Shown here one piece after another: positions 31,380 to 60,871 of a stretch of 64,000 nucleotides of DNA (its first letter is position 1; the number at the start of each line of letters is the position of its first letter). The translations under genes and the position numbers were made by a program. The stretch is from Bacteroidota bacterium. Lineage in GTDB: Bacteria; Bacteroidota; Bacteroidia; J057; JAJTIE01. The notes below the pieces were generated by a model. It was not told the origin of the DNA. It saw nothing but the letters and a program-made list of their open reading frames with translations, and made no database searches. The stretch spans positions 1 through 64,000 of the forward strand of contig JAHBTG010000003.1 in assembly GCA_019638695.1 (NCBI GenBank). Reading direction: 5' to 3'.

Positions 31380-31400
31380 CAGCGGTTCTTTGCTTTTGTG

Positions 31401-31585
31401 CAACAGGTGTCTGAAAAAAGCCTTTTTTCAAAGGAAACTCAGATGAAAAGGGAATACCGGTGCAATACCGGAGCTGTGCCCGCAACTGTAACTGTCGTAG
31501 CGCTTTAGGCAATCAACCACTGCACCTGCAGAAGGTGTGGGAAGGAGCCTGAAGGAGGACAGGAGCCAGGAGACCTGCCTGTTTC
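31401..31585 (+). promoter_or_regulatory. Cobalamin (B12, AdoCbl) riboswitch
   Basis: All hallmarks are present in order: the 5' arm CAGGTGTC (31403-31412 region) that pairs with the 3' GACCTGCCTG, an A-rich linker, GGGAATACCGGTGCAATACCGG, GCCCGCAACTGTAA, CCACTG, GGGAAGG, and a complete B12 box AGCCAGGAGACCTGCC at 31564-31579. The orientation is plus, so the regulated gene is the secreted protein starting 167 nt downstream at 31752. Such switches normally turn expression off when cobalamin is plentiful. In Bacteroidota they usually precede btuB-type receptors, btuG-type surface lipoproteins or cobalamin synthesis genes; none of these is seen here. Confidence 0.93.
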
Positions 31586-31751
31586 ACTCAACAGTAACGG
31601 CCTTCGGGACCAATTGCCGCTGCTGGAAACTCCTCCTTTTTTCTTCCTGTAGCGATTTTTGTCTCAAGGGCTTGGGTCCCCATATTGACCCTGCAAGGGT
31701 GTGTATTCCGGCGTGGTGTATGTCCATCACAGTTCTGTTTACCTCACTCCT

Positions 31752-60335: not shown

Positions 60336-60339
60336 CAGG

Positions 60340-60830
60340 TTATCCTCCGATAAAATTGAGAAGATCCTTCACTCCGTTCAGAATGACACAATAAGAAAAG
60401 GCCAGAAACGGTACAGGCTTCTCCGTCATGCCGAACTTGTCTCAGCATCTCCAGCGCAGAACCGGGTATGACAGCGGACCCCGAAACCAGTTGGTAATGC
60501 TATACAAGGTTATACCTACAACGGTATCAGGCGCTCAGGGCATCTTTTGTAATGGGCCTTACTTTTTTCTTGATAAAAAAGTAAGCAAAAATCAAGGCCT
60601 AACAGCAAAAGGGGGTGTCGCCTGTGCTCCGGCGGCCCAAAACAAACTCGCCCCTTTGCAGGGGCTCAAACAGTGTTTTGGGCTGTCCGCCTGCGCTCAA
60701 GCGCCTCTTATTCCCCTTTTGCTGTTAGGCCGATCTTGCAGGAGTGAATAACTGCGGATGGAAACACAGGGTACCGCCGCTGTTAATGGGTATATCATTG
60801 CCAACCTGTTCGGGATGACCGGGACAAAGT
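60340..60830. repeat. Composite nested inverted-repeat element in a 536 bp intergenic region
   Basis: No gene lies between 60336 and 60871. Instead several palindromes are nested: outermost GTCATGCCGAAC (60425-60436) against GTTCGGGATGAC (60808-60819, 11/12); a hairpin CTTACTTTTTT-CTTGAT-AAAAAAGTAAG (60558-60585); perfect 19-bp arms GGCCTAACAGCAAAAGGGG (60596-60614) and CCCCTTTTGCTGTTAGGCC (60713-60731); inside them GCCCAAAACA (60635-60644) with TGTTTTGGGC (60674-60683); at the centre GCCCCT-TTGC-AGGGGC (60650-60665). At 60362-60387 is a CTTCACTCCGTTCAGAATGACA-like segment. Such segments are, as I recall, typical of dispersed intergenic repeats in Bacteroidota, so this is probably a REP/MITE-like element. 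Confidence 0.7.
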
Positions 60831-60859
60831 ACATAGGAGAAGATGCTTAATTATATGTA

Positions 60860-60867
60860 TAAATTTG
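60860..60867 (+). promoter_or_regulatory. -7 element before the small lipoprotein gene
   Basis: TAAATTTG (60860-60867), perfect -7; predicted start 60871, one base before the ATG at 60872. No -33 TTG is seen. Confidence 0.45.
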
Positions 60868-60871
60868 TAGT

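Follow-up and report, generated by a model that had tools for sequence, protein, structure and literature searches.

A nest of probable mobile repeats in a Bacteroidota genome carries a covarying structured unit found in many copies across much of the phylum

Several described systems resemble parts of the locus considered here. REPs and REPINs are hairpin repeats that occur in many intergenic copies, and recognition of their structure is believed to take place on single-stranded DNA; as described in the passages cited, REPs of the RAYT literature carry a GT[AG]G foot (Quentin et al. 2018, PMC6006769). A second kind, the CGTC repeats, occurs in Bacteroidetes and, according to the portion of text cited, does so without a dedicated transposase (Di Nocera et al. 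2013, PMC3733652). Miniature inverted-repeat elements (MITEs), such as MITECca01 of Cardinium, are short, non-coding sequences with inverted ends, which are dispersed between genes and whose parent transposase is external; in the part of the report cited, MITECca01 is about 240 bp long, has IS982-type ends and is reported from a single strain (Halter et al. 2022, PMC9769881). Finally, the FopS paralogous sRNAs of Bacteroides are a multi-copy intergenic family of Bacteroidota, represented in Rfam by a family of 71 positions (excerpt of PMC11697453).

The locus lies at 60340-60830 of the window, i.e., the whole stretch of 64,000 nucleotides that was analysed, between genes for an aldehyde dehydrogenase and a lipoprotein. 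The genome of the window is a 2.94-Mb draft in 146 contigs. The original prediction described this space as a three-level nest of palindromes, and each of the pairings that it named is present in the sequence: the 19/19 arms at 60596-60614 and 60713-60731, the 10/10 pair at 60635-60644 and 60674-60683, the 6-bp hairpin GCCCCT-TTGC-AGGGGC at 60650-60665, the separate 11/11 hairpin at 60558-60568 and 60575-60585, and the 12-bp imperfect pair at 60505-60516 and 60789-60800 (83%). The last of these forms the inward portion of longer terminal inverted repeats (TIRs), also imperfect, at 60493-60515 and 60780-60802. The segment 60545-60745 is predicted to fold stably as RNA on either strand, with -91.2 kcal/mol (z -6.85) on the + strand and -93.8 kcal/mol (z -7.64) on the - strand, and none of 200 shuffled sequences was as stable on either. 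The layers of the locus, as read from the sequence, are the following, with the basis of each given in brackets.

60340-60830: nested palindromic element between the aldehyde dehydrogenase and lipoprotein genes
60358..60389, - strand: short palindrome, a repeat of CGTC/TGTCATTCTGA type (the - strand reads GTGTCATTCTGAACGGAGTGAAGGATCTTCTC)
60423..60492, + strand: left portion of a pair of CGTC-type REP palindromes, split by the TIR element (join alignment)
60485..60492, no strand: left copy of the 8-bp target duplication, AACCAGTT (7/8 equal to the right copy)
60493..60802, + strand: non-autonomous TIR element (MITE) of 310 bp (recurrent inverted ends, 8-bp flank matches)
60493..60515, + strand: left TIR, GGTAATGCTATACAAGGTTATAC, about 23 bp (side-by-side copies, end pattern)
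About 60558-60735, + strand: core structured unit, a hairpin followed by a long interrupted stem
60558..60598, + strand: 5' module, hairpin CTTACTTTTTT-CTTGAT-AAAAAAGTAAG and linker with ATCAAG at 60591-60596 (covariation; R1 model match of 62.1 bits, E 6.7e-14)
60596..60731, + strand: long interrupted stem with outer arms 60596-60614 and 60713-60731 (pairs in sequence, fold)
60635..60683, + strand: inner stem 60635-60644 and 60674-60683 around AACTCG (60645-60650) and CTCAAACA (60665-60672) (arms pair across variants)
60780..60802, - strand: right TIR, GGCAATGATATACCCATTAACAG as read on the - strand, about 23 bp (side-by-side copies, end pattern)
60803..60810, no strand: right copy of the 8-bp target duplication, AACCTGTT (7/8 equal to the left copy)
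60811..60824, + strand: right remainder of the interrupted CGTC-type palindrome, CGGGATGACCGGGA (join alignment)

The original prediction had offered two readings of this nesting, namely the insertion of one element into another or a single structured mobile unit, and both apply, each at its own level: the outer nest is a TIR element with an 8-bp duplication inside a CGTC-type REP, and the central hairpins at 60558-60735 together make up a single structured unit, which has counterparts throughout the phylum. Taken as a whole the reading is upheld in part. The REP-associated tyrosine transposase that it proposed to look for was not found in the window's genome. Its expectation of a dispersed repeat, rather than a single-copy sequence, was borne out, with 79 BLAST matches of 60336-60871 and 40 covariance-model matches in that genome. 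The copies found by BLAST are mostly 75-90% identical, from which it follows that the family is not freshly active there. Regarding the surroundings, an aldehyde dehydrogenase matching at E<=1e-80 is encoded in 9 of 40 genomes, the window's own counted; the nearest of the others (61% identity) stands at a contig end, and the rest differ in the gene order that follows. A 107-aa ORF that runs through the repeat (60428-60751, + strand, FFLDKKVSKNQ...) is most likely spurious, and small ORFs like it may be annotated as genes in other Bacteroidota genomes. Elsewhere in the window, a cobalamin riboswitch is located at 31388-31596 (+ strand, 104.4 bits).

The outermost layer is the host palindrome, CCGTCATGCCGAAC... 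/ ...TTCGGGATGACCGGG, which starts with CGTCAT and has many intergenic copies, some of them in inverted pairs. When 60493-60810 is deleted in silico, the flanks align across the join to intact palindromes at two other loci of the same genome (L013 and L012). As in CGTC REPs, CCGTCATGCCGAAC has the CGTC tag, AT as the first bases of the stem, and intact relatives at several loci, and the host palindrome behaves like these repeats, an assignment to CGTC REPs in general that follows the text of PMC3733652 cited above. In addition, GTCAT...GGATC modules that resemble the repeat at 60358..60389 adjoin many copies of the element in the window's genome.

The next layer is the 310-bp TIR element. Copies compared side by side give the end consensus GG(T/C)A(A/C)TGATATAC...TTACAC, a pattern with 30 matches in the genome against none for its reversed control, so that dispersed copies have their TIRs in common, as those of a MITE do. 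A permissive scan of the genome returned 19 candidate end pairs, of which six are well matched at both ends and 13 poorly matched. The flanks of the six two-ended copies agree at 8 of 8 positions (L004 and L036), 7 (the window and L002) or 6 (L003 and L039), as against 0 to 4 of 8 for the thirteen poor pairs; over all 19 pairs, chance ones included, the agreement has a shuffle p of 0.00125. The target duplication, perfect in two copies, is therefore of fixed length. The shared TIRs, the 8-bp duplications and the join alignment together identify the outer nest, at the level of sequence, as an element inserted in an element. Moreover, 4 of 31 distinct TIR ends abut the AAC..GTT site of CGTC palindromes by a strict test, and others nearly do so, which suggests that the TIR element may have a target preference for this site. 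At three loci of the same genome (L036, L039 and L027) the elements contain a hairpin of the same type with a different stem, CTTCTTTTGGCTTGACCCAAAAGAAG, which at L036 and L039 lies within the same TIRs in the opposite orientation.

In the core structured unit, which the TIR element carries, the loop CTTGAT is complementary to the downstream ATCAAG, as in an H-type pseudoknot, and the outer arms of the long stem differ completely in sequence between lineages and still pair. Any hairpin with a CTTGA loop and a downstream TCAAG was found as 128 distinct matches (101 of them with the bait stem), compared with 0-1 for each of ten control 5-mers. In an alignment of 93 modules, which is enriched for the bait stem, 8 of the 11 pairs of the first helix show changes in both partners, and pairing holds in 97.8% of the cells of the two helices. 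This alignment has a covariation score of 0.193 versus 0.041 when shuffled and at most 0.065 when slid. Of the loop-linker pairs only the sixth carries evidence, because the other five hardly vary, and it is Watson-Crick in 81 of 90 distinct modules versus 64 when shuffled (0/5000), or, for stems other than the bait, in 34 of 38 versus 21.6 (0/5000). The inner motif, AACTC(G/A)...TCA(A/G)ACA, sits 47-55 bases after the 5' module. Its arms pair at 7 or more of 8 positions in 13 of 16 distinct sequences, which differ from each other by at least three bases, with a mean of 7.06/8 versus 3.82 for shuffled arms (0/2000).

This covarying unit is widespread, as computation shows. At least 112 sequence stretches from named genomes contain an exact copy of the hairpin TACTTTTTTCTTGATAAAAAAGTA, and among the 80 matches listed, 75 carry Bacteroidota titles; the other five are two Nomurabacteria records and one each of Fusobacteria, Bacillales and Chlorobiota. 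Copies in records titled Nomurabacteria and Bacillales are those of L079, L085 and L100; because L085 and a Bacteroidales record (L083) are almost the same, some of these records may be binning errors. A covariance model of the 5' module, i.e., core hairpin and linker (R1), has matches in every one of 27 genomes, all of them known carriers or chosen as such. Besides the 40 matches in the window's genome, there are at least 135 and at least 140 in two Cardinium genomes of about 1 Mb each (G293 and G294), for which 150 candidates were scored, and 72, 41 and 28 in other carriers. Among unchosen genomes, R1 matches 59 of 119 in a sample of the class, which belong to 48 of 84 genera; in a sample of the phylum it matches 46 of 148, 25 of these outside the class. 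A plasmid collection yielded one match to the core unit, 38 bases long, viral contigs yielded three matches, and a phage collection yielded none. In the literature searched, subscription papers excepted, we found no account of this many-copy folded family, and six sequence words taken from the unit are not present in any of the papers.

The packaging of the core unit varies. In some genomes it is naked. Inverted ends enclose it in the window's genome, in G284 and in Cardinium, and these ends differ among the three; in G284 the left end is present in 14 of 16 copies and the right end in 5. Some copies form inverted pairs, such as the inverted modules of L285-L288, or tandem clusters. L271, L272 and L273 hold tandem arrays whose units measure about 222 to 386 bp; in some units a second module stands inverted at the opposite end. 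Seventeen same-strand copies occupy the spacers of an apparent polysaccharide gene cluster on contig 19 of G105 (L311 and L312). Miniature palindromes of 107 bp, in which the bare hairpin stands between an inverted end and a repeat of that end, were seen at L113 (3418-3524) and L150 (5051-5157). In Cardinium (L062-L169; G293 and G294) many contigs stop no more than about 150 bases from a copy, which indicates that the repeat breaks assemblies. In one closed genome, 34 of 54 copies share a replication-strand orientation, which is not significant (p 0.076).

Palindromes of this kind could also be kept perfect by replication errors alone, with no recognition of the fold, since template switching can correct quasi-palindromes. 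The mispairs bear on this. If the unit functioned as RNA, decaying copies would be expected to retain G.U, but not A.C, on the transcribed strand. In four genomes the counts of G.U and A.C were 47/44, 15/19, 5/5 and 34/32, or 101 versus 100 in sum; the 128 positions of the inner arms held 113 Watson-Crick pairs, three A.C and no G.U. With G.U about as frequent as A.C, selection on RNA is not seen. The pattern fits DNA palindromes, and neutral repair of quasi-palindromes would give the same: arms that are nearly all Watson-Crick, with neither mispair favoured. Such repair leaves unexplained, however, the copy numbers and the CTTGA loop, the TCAAG linker and the AACTCG...CTCAAACA motif, which are fixed at set spacing across the phylum, and we regard it as an unlikely account, although not a negligible one.

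The core might instead be a functional structured RNA, such as an sRNA, an attenuator or a terminator, which is only incidentally multi-copy. The loop-linker pairing, the A-rich unpaired stretches and the stable folds would suit this idea, and so would the avoidance of spaces between divergent genes, where 5 of 59 elements lie versus a naive 1 in 4, as expected of a 3'-end element (3 of the 59 are inside an ORF). The mispair counts above speak against it, as do the tens to more than 100 copies per genome beside unrelated genes, the mixed orientation of the elements to their neighbours, and the lack of an Rfam match at the window element (gathering threshold) and in 10 loci (E<=1). Of 157 units, 88 were selected for a stable stem, and in 74 of these the minus strand gives the better fold, an excess that is not read as function on account of this selection and of loops that are A/C-rich on one strand. 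In our judgment, a functional RNA is improbable.

A third possibility is a GTAG-type REP or REPIN moved by a RAYT, i.e., a tyrosine transposase. The unit consists of hairpin repeats with many intergenic copies, some as the inverted module pairs noted above, and the Y1 transposase family PF01797, which is RAYT-type, is somewhat commoner in genomes of the class sample that have the element (49/59) than in those that lack it (40/60; Fisher p 0.057). In spite of this, none of 90 modules has a GT[AG]G foot in the 5 nt before the 9-bp stem. PF01797 is missing from the window's genome and from 6 of 13 further genomes with the element, which were chosen from the 27; both Cardinium, with their 135 or more copies, are among the six. 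Among the 25 families listed, out of 216, for 140 flanking genes there is no transposase family at all, Y1_Tnp included. Movement by a RAYT is thus very hard to sustain. As a class for the core unit, the GTAG REPs were rejected, given that these have GT[AG]G at 0-2 nt 5' of the hairpin and a Y1 transposase in the genome. An integron-like recombination site, read as an attC-like folded single strand, hardly deserves credence: structure is conserved over sequence, tandem same-strand clusters exist, and the window's outer arms happen to agree with GCCTAAC...GTTAGGC, the attC core consensus, but the clusters viewed in three genomes lie in spacers of ordinary gene clusters with no cassettes, and the GTTRRRY fit is missing in most lineages.

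The explanation that we propose, and consider probable, is a nest of mobile repeats whose core is a Bacteroidota-wide structured repeat read as folded DNA by a trans-acting protein. The space between the two genes was first occupied by a CGTC-type REP pair. A 310-bp non-autonomous element with ends of the GG(T/C)A(A/C)TGATATAC type then entered one palindrome at its AACCAGTT site, duplicating 8 bp in the manner of DDE transposases, such an enzyme being presumed; the insertion and its duplication are shown by the ends, the duplications and the alignment to the empty site. This element carries a copy of the structured repeat, in which the loop CTTGA(N) can pair with the downstream (N)TCAAG and is followed by a long, interrupted stem whose inner motif is conserved. 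The unit would persist through a protein acting in trans that recognises the folded DNA, either single-stranded or extruded from the duplex. Recognition by fold, as proposed, would allow the arms to vary freely while pairing, and the loop, the linker and the inner motif to stay. From the anatomy of the unit we infer that folded DNA is what is recognised; its mode of action would be that of a REP/REPIN, or of an IS200-type hairpin end, with another enzyme.

A broader version of this proposal is conceivable, and we offer it tentatively, as something we doubt more than believe: the core may define a phylum-wide class of non-coding mobile DNA, specified not by sequence but by its folded strand, with a hairpin whose loop and linker pair as in a pseudoknot and an interrupted stem around a fixed inner motif, moved in trans by an enzyme other than RAYT and packaged repeatedly in different TIR elements. 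If the core is a substrate read as folded DNA, about half of the sampled genomes of the class would carry a mobile family absent from Rfam and from the literature searched, with up to 140 model matches per genome and, by implication, an enzyme that reads folds in DNA. Many contig breaks (numerous copies are at contig ends) and spurious small ORFs of Bacteroidota would also be explained, and the copies would form a natural library of covarying DNA hairpins in which the needs of a fold-reading protein could be tested. The ordinary reading would still yield exact borders, target duplications and an annotation model for these repeats.

Compared with the known systems, each layer has its own nearest counterpart. 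The likeness to CGTC REPs, as far as the cited text of PMC3733652 describes them, is confined to the flanks, and the TIR element and the core lie outside that group. The TIR element resembles MITEs such as MITECca01 in being short, non-coding and intergenic with inverted ends, and differs from MITECca01, in the part of PMC9769881 cited, by its other ends and its 8-bp duplication. No parent of the TIR element was found: at nine loci with unpaired TIR ends no recognisable transposase lies between matching ends, and PF03400 and PF01797 are missing from the genome. A further system to compare is the IS1 family. Its ends begin GGT(A/G)ATG, and its target duplication is about 8-9 bp. The ends and the duplication of the TIR element are similar, and this resemblance is a lead only; an assignment as an IS1-family MITE was rejected, as no IS1 transposase (PF03400) was found in the 146-contig draft of the window's genome. 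The FopS sRNAs (excerpt of PMC11697453) are like the core unit as a multi-copy intergenic family of Bacteroidota; the one FopS match, in a Tannerella MAG (L149, 6086-6159), lies about 250 bases before a copy of the element and does not overlap it. Finally, the core unit shares with REPs and REPINs its hairpins, its many intergenic copies and a structure that may be read as single-stranded DNA, and departs from the REPs and RAYTs described in the passages of PMC6006769 in having no GT[AG]G foot and no linked Y1 transposase, in its greater length, and in the complementarity between its loop and its linker.
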